Assembly (NCBI RefSeq): GCF_014204325.1
Contig: NZ_JACHKT010000011.1
Location: 1 to 64,000, forward strand
Length of the DNA stretch: 64,000 nucleotides
DNA from: Arcicella rosea
GTDB taxonomy: Bacteria; Bacteroidota; Bacteroidia; Cytophagales; Spirosomataceae
Direction: 5' to 3'
This document shows positions 16,421 to 38,179 of the stretch, piece after piece. Position 1 is the stretch's first letter. Every line of letters starts with the position of its first letter. The notes under the pieces are model-generated. The model was not told where the DNA came from. It made no database searches and saw only the letters and a list, made by a program, of their open reading frames with translations. Both the position numbers and the translations under genes were made by a program.

Positions 16421-16545
16421 CTAATTTGAAAATTTGATGATTTGAAGATTTGAAAATGGAAGGACTTTTTAATTTGAAAATTTGAAGATTTGAAAATGAA
16501 ATGGCTTGGTGATTTGAAGATTTGAGAATTTGAAGATTTGAAAAT
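16421..16545. repeat. ATTTGAAN 8-bp period repeat
   Basis: Degenerate tandem run of the 8-mer ATTTGAA followed by A, G or T (ATTTGAAA ATTTGATG ATTTGAAG ATTTGAAA and further clusters), in three bursts separated by unique spacers. It begins a few bases after a stop codon and is non-coding. Confidence 0.75.
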
Positions 16546-16574
16546 ATTACTAAAAATGGATTGAATTCAAAAAT

Positions 16575-16672
16575 CACAATTAATTAAATCACTCAATCAC
16601 TTACTCACAATTCATTAAATCACTAACTCACAACTCACTAAATCACTAACTCACAATTCACTAACTCACTCA
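16575..16672. repeat. TCACTAACTCACAA word repeat
   Basis: About 98 bp of repeated words CACTAACT, CACAATTC and ACTAAATC with a period near 8, running right up to the ATG of the acetyltransferase at 16673. It is the longest copy of this family in the window. Confidence 0.75.
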
Positions 16673-17092
16673 ATGACCATAAAGATAGCCCACACTGAAG
16701 CAGAGGTTCGCAAATGTTGGTATGTAATTAGTTTACTTCGTCCACATCTTACGGAAGATGTTTTTGTAGAAACAGCTGTCCAAATGTTTAGTGAGGGTTA
16801 TCAATTAGCTTATATTGAAAAAGATGATGAAGTAGTTTCTGCCATTGGTTTCAGGTATTTGCAGATGCTTTATAATGGTAAACAAATTTATATCGACGAC
16901 CTCACTACTTCTGATAAAGTAAGAGGCGAAGGCTATGGAACTGCTTTGTTAGACTATGTAATAGATTTAGCCAAAGCCAACAACTACGATTGTGTCACCC
17001 TAGATTCTGGACCAACCCGCCATACGGCACATCGTTTATACCTCAACAAAGGCTTTCAGATTAGTAGCCATCATTTTGTGAAGAAGTTGTAA
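16673..17092 (+). CDS. GNAT family N-acetyltransferase
   Basis: Acetyl-CoA-dependent acetyltransferase of 139 aa; substrate unknown. Motif A is seen as IDDLTTSDKVRGEGYGTALL (about 77-96), containing the Q/RxxGxG/A-type pyrophosphate-binding loop RGEGYG. The C-terminal strand and helix ARHTAHRLYLNKGF-like segment (about 118-131, TRHTAHRLYLNKGFQ) is the usual motif B. The start codon sits directly after the word-repeat run, so the 5' leader is made of repeat. Confidence 0.85.
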   Translation: MTIKIAHTEAEVRKCWYVISLLRPHLTEDVFVETAVQMFSEGYQLAYIEKDDEVVSAIGFRYLQMLYNGKQIYIDDLTTSDKVRGEGYGTALLDYVIDLAKANNYDCVTLDSGPTRHTAHRLYLNKGFQISSHHFVKKL

Positions 17093-19258: not shown

Positions 19259-19996
19259 ATGTCAACTACCTCAGAATCAGGGCAAGCTAAGAACCTTGCT
19301 AATTTGGAAATCCTTATTTCTTATTGTATTAATTTTGAAGAGCGTTATAATCCTTCTCGTGAGGATTTGAAAATTGCTAATTTGCAGGCTTTGCTGACTA
19401 AAACGAAGGCGGCTTTGGCTGAACATTCGCTTAAAGTGGTGGCTCAAAATCATGCAATTAGTCAACGACAAGAGGCTTTTGCTCCTTTAAAGTCATTATC
19501 AACTAAGTTAGTGAATGCTTTCAGAATATCTGGCGTGGATGACCTAACTGTTGCAAGGGCAAAAGCTATTAACCGCAAAATTCAAGGAAAAAAGGCTTTA
19601 TCTACCCTTAAAAGAATGAAAAAAGAAACGCCTGAAGAGCCTATCGTAACTATCTCTACTTCGCAACAGAGTTATAATTACTTGGTTGAACATTTAGATG
19701 CACTGGTACGTCTTCTTGCAGCTCATTCTGAGTACAATCCCCATGAAGTTCCTTTACAGATTCCTACTTTGAAGGACTACATCAATCAATTAAAAGCTTG
19801 CAACTTGGCTGTAATGAACGCCCATGTAGCATACGAGGGCAGTCGCTCGACAAAAAATATCTTGTTATATCATGATAAAACGGGCTTATTGGATATTGCT
19901 TTGGACGTAAAAGCCTATATCAAGGTCATCTTTGGTGTGAAGAGCTACGAATACGGATTAATTAAGGGCATATCTTTCAAAAGAAGGGACATCTAG
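19259..19996 (+). CDS. Uncharacterised array-associated protein (paralogue A)
   Basis: Protein of 245 aa, no function known to me, predicted soluble and mostly helical, no signal peptide. It is a clear paralogue of 34387-35127. Shared blocks: N-terminal MSTT-E-G-A-N, LSTKLVNAF (about 80-88), NRKIQGKKA (about 107-115), S-QQSYNYLVEHLDALVRLL (about 135-153), YNPHEVPLQI (about 159-168) and TGLLDIALDVKAYIKVIFG (about 208-226). The two halves resemble each other (Y-P-x3-L-I-x2-L in both YNPSREDLKIANL and YNPHEVPLQIPTL), which suggests an internal duplication. A 42-bp-period tandem array begins about 56 bp after the stop, as happens after the paralogue. Upstream is the restriction enzyme gene. Confidence 0.85.
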   Translation: MSTTSESGQAKNLANLEILISYCINFEERYNPSREDLKIANLQALLTKTKAALAEHSLKVVAQNHAISQRQEAFAPLKSLSTKLVNAFRISGVDDLTVARAKAINRKIQGKKALSTLKRMKKETPEEPIVTISTSQQSYNYLVEHLDALVRLLAAHSEYNPHEVPLQIPTLKDYINQLKACNLAVMNAHVAYEGSRSTKNILLYHDKTGLLDIALDVKAYIKVIFGVKSYEYGLIKGISFKRRDI

Positions 19997-20052: not shown

Positions 20053-20304
20053 GTGATATTAGATTTATTCATCTGTCATTTAGATTTATGGCTTGGGCTT
20101 TTAGATATATGATTGGGGATTTAAGATTTAGAGCTTAGGCTTTGAGATATGTTATTGAGGCTTTGAGATTTAGAGCTTGTGCTTTTGAATATACTATTGT
20201 GGCTTTTAGATTTAGAATTTGGTCTTTAAGAATTATTATTGTGGCTTTTAGATTTAGAGCTTTGGCTTTTAAATATATCAGTGTGGCTTTGAGATTTACC
20301 CTTC
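20053..20304. repeat. 42-bp-period tandem array A (six units)
   Basis: Six contiguous imperfect units of exactly 42 bp starting at 20053, 20095, 20137, 20179, 20221 and 20263. Each unit is two 21-bp halves. Aligned from GA, one half has head GATTTAGAGCTT and the other a head like GATATATNATTG; both share the 9-nt tail TGGCTTTTA or close variants. Units 2 to 5 are the cleanest; the outer ones are more diverged. The plus strand is C-poor. Since 42 is a multiple of 3 the array is open in one frame (20142-20330), but that frame has no sensible start and is regarded as a by-product. No unique spacers, so it is not CRISPR. Confidence 0.9.
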
Positions 20305-20444
20305 CGTCAATCATAAATCATAGAGAATAAGCGTTAGTAAGCCGATTGTCGTTCAGATATTTTACAGGATAAAATGTCAATTTACTGTTCAATCTTCGTT
20401 AAATTAGAGTGTGATTTGTGTTAAACCAATAAATAAACCTAAAT
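20305..20444. other. Intergenic tail after array A
   Basis: No gene or further repeat units seen. It leads into the PH-domain gene. Confidence 0.4.
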
Positions 20445-33092: not shown

Positions 33093-34223
33093 ATGAATCT
33101 TTTTAATGTATATCCTCTTTACGACATCACGCCTGTAAAAGCAAAAGGTAGCTATTTATGGGATAAAAATGGTGTTGAGTATCTTGACCTTTACGGCGGT
33201 CATGCAGTAATTTCTATCGGACATTCGCATCCGTATTATGTAGAAAAACTCACTGAACAATTACAAAATATTGGCTTCTATTCTAACTCTGTGAATATTC
33301 CTATTCAAAGTGAATTGGCTGAAAAATTAGGAAAACTTTCTGGTTGTGAAGAGTACGATTTATTCCTTTGTAATTCTGGAGCAGAAGCGAATGAAAACGC
33401 TTTGAAAGTAGCTTCTTTCTTCAACGGACGTAAAAAAGTAATTGCTTTTTCCAAAGCATTTCACGGAAGAACGGCTGGAGCGGTTGCTGTTACCGACAAT
33501 AAAGCGATTGTTGCTCCTATCAATTACGATGAACACGTTACTTTCCTCCCATTCAACGATGCTGAAACACTTACAGCGAACGTAACAGAAGAAACTTGTG
33601 CAGTAATTATCGAAGGTATTCAGGGCGTAGGCGGAATCAATGTGGCTTCTGATGAATTCTTGAAAGCCGCTCGTGAAGCTTGCGACAAAACGGGTGCAAT
33701 CTTGATTTTGGATTCTGTACAGTGCGGATATGGTCGTTCGGGAAAATTCTTCTCTCACCAATTCTCAGGCATCAAACCAGATTTGATTACCACAGCCAAA
33801 GGAATGGGCAATGGCTTCCCGATTGGTGGCGTATTTATTGCACCCAAATTCAAAGCAAAACATGGAATGTTAGGCACAACTTTCGGTGGAAATCACTTAG
33901 CTTGTGCGGCGGCTGTGGCGGTGTTGGATGTAATGAAAGAAGAAGCTTTGATAGAAAATGCCGCTAAAATGGGCGAGTATTTATTTGAAAAACTAAGCAA
34001 ATTAGAAGGCATCAAAGAATTACGTGGACGTGGATTGATGATTGGTATCGAGTTTGAACAACCCGTAGATAAAATCAGAGATTCTTTACTTTTTGAACAT
34101 CATATTTTCTGTGGTTATGCTGGCAAACATACTTTGCGTTTGTTACCAAGTCTTGCCATTACACAAAAAGAATGTGATACTTTCTTGCAAGCTTTAGAAG
34201 AAGTTATTTCGGTAACGGCTTAG
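33093..34223 (+). CDS. argD: Acylornithine aminotransferase (ArgD family)
   Basis: PLP-dependent class III aminotransferase, 376 aa, that converts the N-acyl-glutamate semialdehyde to N-acylornithine; acetyl versus succinyl cannot be told by eye. The PLP-phosphate segment NSGAEANENALKVA is at about 93-106. The conserved Asp of the pyridine-N contact lies in ILILDSVQCGYGRSG (about 204-218). The Schiff-base Lys236 lies in TAKGMGNGFPIGG. It is the last recognised gene of the arginine cluster; a strong terminator follows. Confidence 0.93.
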   Translation: MNLFNVYPLYDITPVKAKGSYLWDKNGVEYLDLYGGHAVISIGHSHPYYVEKLTEQLQNIGFYSNSVNIPIQSELAEKLGKLSGCEEYDLFLCNSGAEANENALKVASFFNGRKKVIAFSKAFHGRTAGAVAVTDNKAIVAPINYDEHVTFLPFNDAETLTANVTEETCAVIIEGIQGVGGINVASDEFLKAAREACDKTGAILILDSVQCGYGRSGKFFSHQFSGIKPDLITTAKGMGNGFPIGGVFIAPKFKAKHGMLGTTFGGNHLACAAAVAVLDVMKEEALIENAAKMGEYLFEKLSKLEGIKELRGRGLMIGIEFEQPVDKIRDSLLFEHHIFCGYAGKHTLRLLPSLAITQKECDTFLQALEEVISVTA

Positions 34224-34386: not shown

Positions 34387-35127
34387 ATGTCAACTACTAC
34401 CGAAACGGGACATGCTATTAATGTCCGTAATTTTTTTGACCTCATCAATGTTTGTAAAGCTTTTGGTAGCCAATACCAGCCTAGCAAAACCGCAATTCAA
34501 ATTCCGGCTTTAGAGGTAACGCTTGCTCAAGCACAAACTGCTCTCAATGAAGTCATCAAATACAATACTGCTTATAATGTTGCGATTAATGCACGATTTG
34601 AACTCTTCAAAAACAATAAAACTTTAGCTACGAGACTCGTAAATGCTTTTGAGAACTCAGATGCTCCTACCGAAACGAAGAAAGATTTGAAAGGATTCAA
34701 CAGAAAATTACAAGGTAAAAAAGCAAGTGAAAGGAAAAATAAAGACATTGAAGAGGATGCTCAAAATCCAAAGACAAAAACAGTTTCGTCTATCCAACTC
34801 TCCTACACTAATCAAGTAGAACATCTTCGTGCCTTGCTGAGTATCCTATCCAGCGAGACAAGTTATGCCCCCAATGAAGTAGCGCTACAAGTAAATACTA
34901 TTCAGGAATTGTTGACCAATCAAATGGCAGCGAATGAACAGGTTTCATCCTGTTTTGTAGCTATAAGTAACGCTCGACTGACAAGAGATAGAATTTTGTA
35001 TGGAGCAGAAACAGGCTTGTGTTCACTAAGTCTTCATGTAAAAAAATATGTAAAATCCATCTTTGGAAGCACTAGCCAAGAATACAAACAATTGAGTAGG
35101 ATAACATTCAATGTGATTAAGAAATAA
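34387..35127 (+). CDS. Uncharacterised array-associated protein (paralogue B)
   Basis: Protein of 246 aa, paralogue of 19259-19996 along its whole length. Matching blocks: MSTTTETGHAINVRNF at the start, LATRLVNAF (about 80-88), NRKLQGKKA (about 106-114), QLSYTNQVEHLRALLSIL (about 139-156), YAPNEVALQVNTI (about 162-174), TGLCSLSLHVKKYVKSIFG (about 210-228) and a closing EYKQLSRITF. The two N-termini are almost the same while the middles differ, and the N- and C-halves look like a duplicated unit. No signal peptide, membrane segment or catalytic motif. A 42-bp-period array begins two bases after the stop codon. The family is known to me only as hypothetical proteins of Bacteroidota. Confidence 0.85.
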   Translation: MSTTTETGHAINVRNFFDLINVCKAFGSQYQPSKTAIQIPALEVTLAQAQTALNEVIKYNTAYNVAINARFELFKNNKTLATRLVNAFENSDAPTETKKDLKGFNRKLQGKKASERKNKDIEEDAQNPKTKTVSSIQLSYTNQVEHLRALLSILSSETSYAPNEVALQVNTIQELLTNQMAANEQVSSCFVAISNARLTRDRILYGAETGLCSLSLHVKKYVKSIFGSTSQEYKQLSRITFNVIKK

Positions 35128-35129
35128 AA

Positions 35130-35342
35130 GATTAAGGGCTAAGTAAAAAAGAAATGGGGCTACTTAGGAAAGAAATATTATTACACTGAAAAGAAATAGA
35201 GCTACTTGGAAAAGAAATGTTATTACTCAAAAAGGATATAGAGCTGCTTGGAAAAGAAATGTTACTACTCAAAAAGGAAATAGAGCTACTTGGAAAAGAA
35301 ATATTACTACTCATAAAAGAAAGAGAGCTACTTGGAAAAGGG
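35130..35342. repeat. 42-bp-period tandem array B (about five units)
   Basis: A half-unit at 35130-35150, then units of exactly 42 bp starting at 35151, 35193, 35235, 35277 and 35319, the last one decaying after its first half. Each unit has two 21-bp halves: head GAAATAGAGCTA with tail CTTGGAAAA, and head GAAATGTTATTA with tail CTCAAAAAG. The period, the GA starts and the alternation of TAGAGCT and ATT heads are the same as in array A; the tails differ. The plus strand is C-poor and A-rich. The minus strand is open (35132-35314) with a 14-residue repeat rich in SSSISF, viewed here as a by-product of the period. Confidence 0.9.
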
Positions 35343-35359
35343 AGCTTAATATTATATCC

Positions 35360-35590
35360 TTAGTTCTCAGCTAATATTTTAGAAAGGATTGAACTCCAAC
35401 GCTCTACTTCCTCCAAATTATCTTGGTTTTCATCAACCTTTCTTTCTTCTGAACAAAGTCTGGATAGTCTTTCGTAAGTTCTTCTATTAATGGAACAACT
35501 CTCTTTCCAACAACAAATCTGTTGATTTTCAGGCTCACTAGTTTCTCCACGAAAATGCCTAGAGAGTAATATATAATCAATTTTTTTCAT
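35360..35590 (-). CDS. Small FecR-N-terminus-like protein
   Basis: Reading frame of 76 aa from the ATG at 35590; a longer version from 35785 adds a hydrophobic, low-quality N-terminus and is less likely. The segment DYILLSRHFRGETSEPENQQ, followed by CCWKES..N and YERLSRL, resembles the N-terminal domain of FecR-type anti-sigma regulators (about 10-45), but the membrane and FecR domains are missing and no sigma factor gene is adjacent. It could be a remnant or a stand-alone regulator. A -7-like CATTTTTG lies very close to the ATG, with TTTG 19 nt further upstream, so the transcript might be nearly leaderless. Modest support. Confidence 0.4.
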   Translation of the reverse strand: MKKIDYILLSRHFRGETSEPENQQICCWKESCSINRRTYERLSRLCSEERKVDENQDNLEEVERWSSILSKILAEN

Positions 35591-36061
35591 GCAAAAATGA
35601 AAAATAAAGGACTGCTTGCAAAGTTGAAATTTGAAGATACTACAACAATAGACTAAAGCTTGACAAATAAGTAACAAAATTTGAACAAAAATTATTAAAA
35701 GTATTATAAACTTTAATGGAATATTGAAGCTCAATTCTTTACAGGAAGCTACTACCTTAGAAACAACAAAACAAATGATAATCAATTACTTACCATACAA
35801 AAAAGTATCTCTTCAAATTAAAAAATACAAAGATTATAGTCCAATATTTAGCTAACACTCAGTCGATTAAGCATAAATGCACAAAGTACATCATCATTCA
35901 CATTTTGATATTAGCCAATAAAGTAATTATTTTGCGTTTCTTTTGGGTTCCCTAGAATCTATCAGAAGATTAGTATCACATTGTAATTTCTTTATCAAAA
36001 ACCTTGTCTTTGATGCTTTGGAGCTGATAGATAGCGAAAAACAATAACTTAATATTTAAAA
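35591..36061. other. Intergenic region upstream of the foldase gene
   Basis: About 470 bp without a supported gene; AT-rich, no tandem repeat seen. It presumably contains the promoter of the PpiD/SurA-like gene, but no clear consensus was found. Confidence 0.4.
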
Positions 36062-38179
36062 ATGGCATTAATTACCAAAATCAGAGAAAAGTCGGGGATT
36101 GCGGCGGCGGCAATCGCCATCAGTTTAATTCTCTTTCTTATCGGAGGAGACATTTTTCAAGGTCGTTCAAGTTTCTTCGGCGGTGCAAAAGACGCAGTTG
36201 GTGAAATCGGAGGAGAAACGATTAAATACCAAGATTTTCAAAATAAAGTTGACGAAATTACGCAACAATACCAACAACAGTCTGGTCGTAGCCCTGGAGA
36301 ACAAGAAGTATCGATGATTCGTGACCAAGTTTGGAATCAATACATCTTGGATTTAGCTTATGGCAAAGAATACGAAACATTAGGACTTACAGTTTCTCCT
36401 GCTGAATTGGTTGATATGGTTCAAGGAACAAATATTCACCCTTCAGTTCGTCAGCAATTTACAAATCCACAAACAGGACAGTTCGATAAGAATTATGTAA
36501 TTCAGTTTTTGAAAAACTTCAAAACACTTCCTGCAGCACAACAACAAGCTTGGGTTAATTTTGAGAAATCATTGAGCCAAGACCGTTTGAGATTAAAGTA
36601 TGAAAACCTTTTGAAGATGTCAACATATACAACAAATGTTGAAGCTCAAAAAGACTATGTTGCACAAACGTCAAAAGTAGATGCACGTTATTTGTACGTA
36701 CCATTCTATTCGGTAGCAGACTCTACGATTAAAGTAACAGATGCTCAGTTAGAAGAATATTTATCATCGCACAAAGATTTATTCCAAGGACAAACTACAC
36801 GTTCTATTCAGTACGTAACGTTCCCAGTTATTCCTTCTAAATTAGATACTGCATCTTTCTACAACGATTTAAAGCGTTTGGCGAAAGAATTAGCGATTGC
36901 TAAAAATGATTCGGCATTTGCGATGATGAATTCGGATGTTAAAACTCCTTATTATTCAACATTAGCAGAAATTCCTGAAGCTGTAAAAGGACAGTTAGGA
37001 AACATGACTCCAGGAGGTATTTATGGCCCATTCAAAAATGGTTTGACTTACTCAATCTATAAATACGGCGGTATCCAAAAAGATTCTTTATTCACAGTTC
37101 GTGCTAGTCATATCTTAATCAATGCTCCAAAAGATGCTTCTGATTCAGTAAAAGCAACAGCTCGTAAGCGTGCAGAAGGTATTTTAGCACAAATTAAAGG
37201 TGGAGCAAGCTTTGAAGCAATGGCTCAACAATTTGGTACTGATGGAACTGCACAACAAGGAGGAGATTTAGGTTACTTCAAAAACAATGGTGGAATGGTA
37301 AAACCATTTGAAAACGCTGTTTTCGCTTTCTCTGGAACAGGTTTATTGCCAAGTATTGTTGAAACTGATTTTGGTTACCACATCGTAAAAGTAACAGAAG
37401 CTAAGACAAACACTCGTTATAAATTAGCCGCTATCAACCGCACGATTGCACCAAGTCAATCTACAATGGATGAAGTATTGCGTAAAGCAGATGCTTTTGC
37501 AGCAGAAAATACTACGAAAGAAGCTTTTGAAGCAAGTTTGAAAAAAGACAAAACATTGTTGATGCTTCGTGGAGATAGAATTCCAGAAGGAGCGTCAAGT
37601 TTCAATAACTTACAAAATGCACGTGACATTGTTCGTTGGGCATTTAATGATGATACTAAAGTAGGTTCGGTTTCAGATGTCTTCCAAAATGATAACCAAT
37701 ACATTGTTGCTTTAGTAACAGGAAGTACTGATAAAGAAAAAGTGAAAGTAGATGATTTCAGAGAAGAATTAACAGCAAGAGTTAAAGGAGATTTGAAAGC
37801 AGAACAAATTGAGAAAAAATTAGCGGGCATTTCAGGTACTTTAGAGCAAATCGCTCAGAAATACGGAGCAGGAGCTTTAGTAGAAACGGCAACTGATATT
37901 ACTTTAGCACAAGGTGTATTAACTAGTGCAGGTGCAGATCCAACAGCAATTGGTAAAGCATTCGGTTTGAAAGTAGGAAAACGTTCTAAGCCTTTCAAAG
38001 GCGAAGGTGGTGTTTTCATTATGGAAACAACTAAATCTACTCCAGCACCAGCAATAGCGGATTTAACACTTTATAAAAACACAGCAAAAATGATGGCAGG
38101 ACAAAGAACATCATTCTATATCAACGAAGCAATCAAAGAAAATGCGAAAGTGGTTGATAACAGAGCTAAGTTCTTTTAG
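36062..38179 (+). CDS. PpiD/SurA-like peptidyl-prolyl isomerase
   Basis: Membrane-anchored periplasmic foldase of 705 aa. One N-terminal membrane segment (about 12-30, GIAAAAIAISLILFLIGGD) is followed by a SurA-N-like helical chaperone domain (about 35-230), a parvulin rotamase domain (about 345-450; VRASHILINAPKDAS, then FGTDGTAQQGGDLGYF and FGYHIVKV), and a large C-terminal region that resembles a second, degenerate rotamase. This is the Bacteroidota PpiD arrangement. It would assist folding of exported proteins near the translocon. Solitary, closed by a strong terminator. Confidence 0.9.
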   Translation: MALITKIREKSGIAAAAIAISLILFLIGGDIFQGRSSFFGGAKDAVGEIGGETIKYQDFQNKVDEITQQYQQQSGRSPGEQEVSMIRDQVWNQYILDLAYGKEYETLGLTVSPAELVDMVQGTNIHPSVRQQFTNPQTGQFDKNYVIQFLKNFKTLPAAQQQAWVNFEKSLSQDRLRLKYENLLKMSTYTTNVEAQKDYVAQTSKVDARYLYVPFYSVADSTIKVTDAQLEEYLSSHKDLFQGQTTRSIQYVTFPVIPSKLDTASFYNDLKRLAKELAIAKNDSAFAMMNSDVKTPYYSTLAEIPEAVKGQLGNMTPGGIYGPFKNGLTYSIYKYGGIQKDSLFTVRASHILINAPKDASDSVKATARKRAEGILAQIKGGASFEAMAQQFGTDGTAQQGGDLGYFKNNGGMVKPFENAVFAFSGTGLLPSIVETDFGYHIVKVTEAKTNTRYKLAAINRTIAPSQSTMDEVLRKADAFAAENTTKEAFEASLKKDKTLLMLRGDRIPEGASSFNNLQNARDIVRWAFNDDTKVGSVSDVFQNDNQYIVALVTGSTDKEKVKVDDFREELTARVKGDLKAEQIEKKLAGISGTLEQIAQKYGAGALVETATDITLAQGVLTSAGADPTAIGKAFGLKVGKRSKPFKGEGGVFIMETTKSTPAPAIADLTLYKNTAKMMAGQRTSFYINEAIKENAKVVDNRAKFF

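Follow-up and report, generated by a model that had tools for sequence, protein, structure and literature searches.

Predicted helical proteins of Bacteroidota encoded beside 21-bp-register tandem arrays: a possible two-part system acting at the DNA level

All eight genes of a protein family that a search retrieved from the genome of Arcicella rosea are accompanied by a tandem array with a 42-bp period, each gene having its own unit type, and several of these gene-linked unit types recur elsewhere in the same genome in the absence of a gene. The family is an unnamed Bacteroidota group of mostly basic, helical proteins, two members of which are encoded in the window, i.e. the whole stretch of 64,000 nucleotides that was analyzed. 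Tentatively, we interpret gene and arrays as the two parts of a DNA-level system in which the helical protein would recognise dispersed arrays of its own unit type. The features of the window to which we refer are as follows.

19259..19996, plus strand: family gene A, a paralogue of gene B (245 aa)
20059..20319 (about), plus strand: array A, 42-bp period, with a unit sequence unlike that of array B
33093..34223, plus strand: left flank gene of the empty site, a conserved neighbour, aminotransferase-like by eye
34387..35127, plus strand: family gene B (246 aa), from the open reading frames and the family search of the genome
35136..35342, plus strand: array B, about ten 21-bp units in alternating pairs, 42-bp period
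35360..35785, minus strand: small reverse open reading frame on the right flank, whose 3' end abuts array B
36062..38179, plus strand: right flank gene of the empty site, a conserved neighbour, peptidyl-prolyl isomerase-like by eye

The first-pass annotation of this DNA had proposed a paralogous gene at 34387-35127, followed by a repeat with a 42-bp period at 35130-35342 that is built of two alternating 21-bp halves. The open reading frame is present, with a product of 246 aa, the two alternating halves are as described, and the periodicity test that had been named as the one able to refute the array yielded a 42-bp peak far above shuffled sequence. Using 2000 dinucleotide-preserving shuffles and periods of 5-99, we determined a self-match of 35130-35342 of 0.813 at 42, 0.744 at 84 and 0.599 at 21, compared to a shuffle mean of 0.317 and maximum of 0.444 at 42, and a shuffle maximum of 0.488 at any period. 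The proposed start of the array had to be amended: the array indeed lies directly 3' of the gene, but the clear repeat starts at about 35136-35145 and not at 35130. Tandem Repeats Finder delineated 35145-35340 (period 42, 4.7 copies, 87% matches) and a degenerate array start at 35136-35176 with period 21. The products of genes A and B are 39% identical across 241 columns. Among known RNA families, tRNA alone reached the gathering score in the window. As a separate observation, the window harbours at 16423-16674 two adjoining 8-bp-based repeat arrays, of the AATTTGAA and TAAATCAC types, which are unlike the 21-bp arrays.

The existence of a repeated gene-plus-array module, likewise proposed at first pass, was borne out at the level of the genome. 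A search at E <= 0.001 retrieved the eight family genes, and a 42-bp array was found downstream of the six long-type genes and upstream of the two short-type genes; the module count and position check that had been proposed gave eight modules at variable locations, with the window site empty in relatives. One further candidate member in the sampled genome, a weak hit, L180 (16.8 bits, 335 aa), is glycosyltransferase-like by eye and was set aside.

We extended the analysis to 71 family loci, comprising this genome and its relatives, a phylum sample, and 50 loci found through conserved peptide patterns, which are not an unbiased sample; these 50 are mostly labelled Bacteroidota, two being labelled Neisseriaceae and Ignavibacteriales, both metagenome bins. 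Own-genome duplicates (L063, L072, L075, L077-L079) and 32-residue fragments (L074, L076) were left out. An array of period 21, 42 or 63 was found at 63/71 loci, 61 of them by a single rule (a best-scoring period in one flank of 21, 42 or 63, above shuffles). The two others are L042, where the array sits further out from the gene, and L070, whose short-type gene is intact and preceded by the array (self-match of 0.63 at 42 and 0.60 at 21, scored without shuffles). These 63 loci are not all independent, since they include close relatives (e.g. L013, L014, L020 and L027) and since L058 lies on the L023 contig. No clear array was found at the remaining eight loci: none was seen in the flanks of L029, L049, L056 and L064, downstream sequence at L033 ends after 5 bases, L062 and L073 represent fragments of the gene, and L071 is ambiguous. 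An array-type period on both flanks was encountered at L041 alone, while seven opposite flanks gave a signal of another period. The upstream position characterizes six short-type genes (L007-L010, L012 and L070); downstream of its stop, L008 carries in addition a 62-bp-period repeat with GAGTTGGAAACCCGTGCTAC-like segments, which is of a different kind. Some contigs stop within or right beside an array (L033, L024, L070), so that arrays seem to break short-read assemblies and the array counts may be low.

Arrays have a median length of 15.4 units (range 9.2 to 28.8; 58 loci, generous edge rule). Their unit sequences differ among loci, and a weak common motif, in the gene sense AGCAACCGCAATTAGAAATAT, emerged from an alignment made without L014, L027, L058, L029, L062, L071 and arrays shorter than 180 bases; the unit of array B is akin to this motif. 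The 21-bp register is strict, with 777/791 units in register compared to 463/791 in shuffled arrays, and 12 of the 14 misses fall in L010, L040 and L057. In L042, all 11 of 11 units are in register at 59% consensus identity. Along the unit, the power spectrum of the G+C content was raised at 21 and 7 bp and lowered at 10.5 bp, which argues against a simple 10.5-bp bend signal. A coding repeat was ruled out, as no reading frame is consistently open across arrays (at least 10 stops in every frame of L003 and at least 13 in L004, in the gene's direction), although an open frame is found in individual arrays.

Array similarity and protein identity were found to be correlated among 50 downstream loci (Spearman 0.34, with 0/500 permutations as high). 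The correlation was 0.23 below 60% identity (0/500 permutations as high) and weak below 50% identity (0.13, 26/500 permutations as high). This co-variation fits the inheritance of gene and array as a unit, and is by itself no proof of recognition.

Regarding the protein, the AlphaFold2 model of gene B (44-row alignment; mean pLDDT 91.5, pTM 0.81) displays two sets of four helices, which may be read as two predicted bundles, connected in sequence by a low-confidence basic linker at about residues 109-139. The isoelectric point exceeds 8 in 49/56 proteins of array-bearing loci (median 9.45, lowest 5.2). The family has no significant match in Pfam, NCBIfam, PHROG or PDB, including, for the first three libraries, any known domain of partition or replication proteins; matches to transposase, recombinase or HUH families were likewise absent, sequence-library and fold searches retrieved no known DNA-binding domain, and Foldseek against PDB and BFVD returned nothing at E <= 0.001. 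Weak matches to DUF6261 (PF19775) were obtained from 3/44 family members (alignment A2), the best at E 0.0021. Several candidate identities were rejected: a known defence system (0 PADLOC families for both window proteins), a plasmid element (a search of 72,556 plasmid records at E <= 0.001 retrieved no relative of P0002) and a phage element (no relative of P0002 in phage records at E <= 0.001 and none confirmed in viral contigs). We found no description of the family in the literature, in which subscription papers were thinly covered, including the accessible parts of PMC9426551, PMC4060949 and PMC4596501.

Arrays also occur independently of the gene: several gene-linked unit types form solo arrays at other places of the A. 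rosea genome, where a whole-genome protein search detected no family gene. Array B type recurs at C55:167-360 and C18:19264-19443 and, in short forms, at C27:253-291 and C10:36596-36628. On C55 and C27, the pieces are located close to contig ends and adjoin similar insertion-sequence-like ends; they may be one interrupted array, and a gene past those contig ends is possible. Array A type has one solo copy (C28:60914-61130), the type of the C9 gene recurs on C34, C10 and C18, and that of the C54 gene on C12, C9 and C20, the main BLAST matches of solo arrays being 71-90% identical. In the 1.264 Mb sampled, 14 places had a main period of 42, six with and eight without a gene (regions of another best period, namely L152 and L157 (63), L184 (43) and L185 (66), are not in this list). 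Nine solo arrays occupy these eight places: four match one gene-linked type (profile similarity 0.78-0.96, compared to at most 0.69 among different gene-linked types), the similarity of one is borderline (0.71), and the remaining four are unlike any gene-linked type. Gene and array are thus not strictly one to one. At L115:11133-11496 (C18), a 42-bp-period array of type B directly adjoins a different array of the same period that has no gene-linked match.

The position of the modules bears on their mobility. None of the six same-genus genomes examined (G001-G006, all of which carry the left-hand neighbour gene; G007 lay outside that search) has the window module in the corresponding intergenic space. 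In these six genomes the right-hand neighbour still follows the left one at a spacing of 572 to 1138 bases, measured from the end of the first alignment to the second gene, whereas the same space in the window extends over 1.85 kb and holds gene and array; a family-gene match was absent from the six spaces, as was, by eye, a 42-bp array. Pieces of the 35360..35785 region align in same-genus genomes. For the solo site C9:45792, the single same-genus match (G004) lacks the array, and its downstream sequence does not align. Elsewhere, L013, L014, L020 and L027 have in common the gene, the array and an element of about 147 bp; the upstream flank is common to L013 and L020, while L014 and L027 have other ones. 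The family itself is sporadic, with a match in 9/395 Bacteroidota genomes searched, own genome included.

Together with the presence of a gene with cognate dispersed repeats, the empty window site, the parts shared by L013, L014, L020 and L027 and the sporadic occurrence of the family speak for a mobile satellite like RAYT-REP, in which the gene-array module would be autonomous and solo arrays would be non-autonomous copies, spread and homogenised by the protein or a partner, any function for the cell being secondary. We consider this explanation unlikely, given that the protein model is all-helical and has no match to a transposase, recombinase or HUH family, that same-type arrays compared by eye have no leader, tail or inverted ends in common, and that the strict register kept in diverged arrays points to selection beyond spreading.

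Several observations concern the edges of these elements. The identity between L013 and L014 stops near the ACGTTA of a hairpin which, by eye, resembles an integron attC site; a break at such a site suggests cassette-like mobility. By eye, the edges of same-type arrays have no common sequence, and a TTTTTTAGGATGTGACA edge is found at some arrays of different types. A GATGTGACA edge directly precedes arrays at five places (L111 near 7317, L177 near 3263, L091 near 136, L093 near 242 and L201 near 1485), which represent three unit types, and lies within TTTTTTAGGATGTGACA in 4/5 of them; a transposase-like open reading frame (by eye) adjoins L093. The GATGTGACA/TTTTTTAGGATGTGACA edge may be the end of an array-favouring insertion sequence. 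Three other GATGTGACA sites in the sample lie away from arrays.

A role at the RNA level would require that arrays at gene ends be transcribed and bound by the protein, with 3'-end processing, stability or termination as the outcome. Consistent with such a role, the unit motif runs one way in 48/58 arrays, and in 46/52 of those downstream of the gene, and 13/16 solo places in this genome have the 3' end of a neighbouring open reading frame no more than 100 bases away (plain open reading frames, not curated genes, define these ends; the exceptions are C5:31203, C8:28087 and C12:92812). By rough expectation from the gap classes of the sample, the nearest end would be a 3' end in 44% of cases (0.144 convergent plus half of 0.592 tandem). 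RNA folding of six arrays was strong in two, L013:3776-3923 (z -6.05) and L015:3776-3923 (z -4.10), but the four others gave no folding signal (z +0.06 to +3.39). Moreover, a terminator-like hairpin separates gene and array in 18/53 downstream arrays (L014, L027 and L058 not counted; the search extended 60 bases into the array, and a few of the 18 may overlap it). These hairpins, and the six short-type arrays located upstream of their gene, indicate that the array need not be part of the gene's mRNA. Solo arrays, furthermore, occur in both orientations to the neighbouring gene. We therefore regard an RNA-level role as quite improbable.

Four other genomes that carry the gene also contain solo copies: G317 has two solo arrays besides its single gene, the array query from G344 matched one solo array each in G344 and G367, and the chromosome of Flavobacterium sp. 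JAD_PAG50586_2 gave three solo matches. Placement of solo arrays at 3' ends is weaker outside this genome (2/7 places within 100 bases). Three genomes in which no family gene was found served as controls. G050, of the genus of G344, gave a 32-base match only (E 0.0098). G005, of the window's genus, had no region of period 21, 42, 63 or 84 in 400 kb, a weak control, as the five solo 42-bp arrays in 800 kb of own sequence selected without foreknowledge lead one to expect about 2.5 arrays in 400 kb, and zero would arise by chance in about 8% of cases. In G007, which has many repeats of other periods, period 42 was found in 5 regions and period 21 in 7; inspected by eye, most of these regions are coding repeats or built on 7 bp, but for one stretch of 101 bp we have no explanation. 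Judged from these gene-less controls, a dependence of the arrays on the gene is suggested, although the controls are no proof and not decisive.

It might be asked whether the array is a neutral minisatellite that merely travels with a small gene, with no functional link between the two. Tandem arrays can turn over and homogenise unaided, the genome contains other tandem repeats, and both the unmatched types among the sampled solo arrays (4/9) and the indecisive controls would agree with this. However, period 42 accounts for 16 regions in 1.264 Mb, compared to at most 3 for each period besides 21, 42, 63 and 84, and the 21-bp period is found phylum-wide on unrelated units with little register drift, so that we deem a neutral origin very unlikely.

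Overall, we tentatively retain the two-part system in which protein and arrays act together at the level of DNA. Binding of the array by the protein is the simplest reading, and we infer that this binding would be type-specific, with bridging or marking of chromosomal sites as its conceivable outcome. In such a model, the small, mostly basic helical protein would recognise arrays of its own unit type that comprise about ten or more 21-bp sites; the gene and one array would travel together as a module of about 1 kb, and further arrays of the same type elsewhere in the chromosome would be bound in trans. As a spacing of 21 bp corresponds to two helix turns, adjacent bound proteins would lie on the same face of the DNA and could bind cooperatively, and trans binding of dispersed arrays could allow the protein to bridge or mark several sites of the chromosome.

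A more far-reaching version of this model is possible, though doubtful: a new chromosome-marking system of Bacteroidota, in which several paralogous helical proteins of one cell would each bind their own dispersed set of 21-bp satellite arrays, placed at gene ends, and thereby constitute addressing or bridging codes that work in parallel without interference and pass from genome to genome as gene-array modules. If true, several protein-satellite pairs would exist in parallel within a single bacterial genome, an arrangement that is otherwise discussed with regard to eukaryotic satellites and centromere proteins, and the commonest class of tandem repeat in the sampled part of this genome would be accounted for. 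Since the pairs differ in unit and yet keep one period, specificity and the meaning of the two-turn spacing would then be testable by array/protein swaps.

By analogy, the organisation resembles both RAYT-REP and ParB-parS, although the protein differs and the arrays are non-palindromic. The likeness to DUF6261 (PF19775) consists of weak sequence matches in 3/44 members. In ParB-parS, MatP-matS and iteron or centromere arrays, a DNA-binding protein acts on clustered or dispersed cognate sites, which are often helix-phased; the present arrays share this organisation of cognate sites, with binding being presumed here, and differ from plasmid partition and iteron systems in that neither a significant match to known families in the libraries scanned nor, at E <= 0.001, a plasmid-record relative of P0002 was found. 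RAYT (TnpA-REP) proteins are HUH nucleases and REPs are palindromes. As for RAYT, the gene described here lies beside cognate repeats that also occur as solo intergenic copies, with the addition that some solo arrays are without a matching gene. In contrast to the RAYT nuclease, the protein has an all-helical model and no significant Pfam, NCBIfam or PHROG match, and in contrast to REP palindromes, the arrays consist of direct 21-bp repeats, with a folding signal in 2/6.

BrickBuilt of Porphyromonas gingivalis, as far as the accessible part of its description extends, is a minisatellite-MITE with a 23-nt unit and with a leader and a tail carrying small inverted-repeat ends (PMC4596501). It represents one element family for which that part of the description names no partner gene (PMC4596501), whereas several unit types, with protein genes for the gene-linked ones, are found here, and its 23-nt unit contrasts with the 21-bp register of the present arrays (PMC4596501). 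Among published arrays that we found, BrickBuilt is nevertheless the nearest, since it comprises, likewise in Bacteroidota, intergenic, spacer-less tandem arrays with about two helical turns per unit and many copies per genome (PMC4596501).
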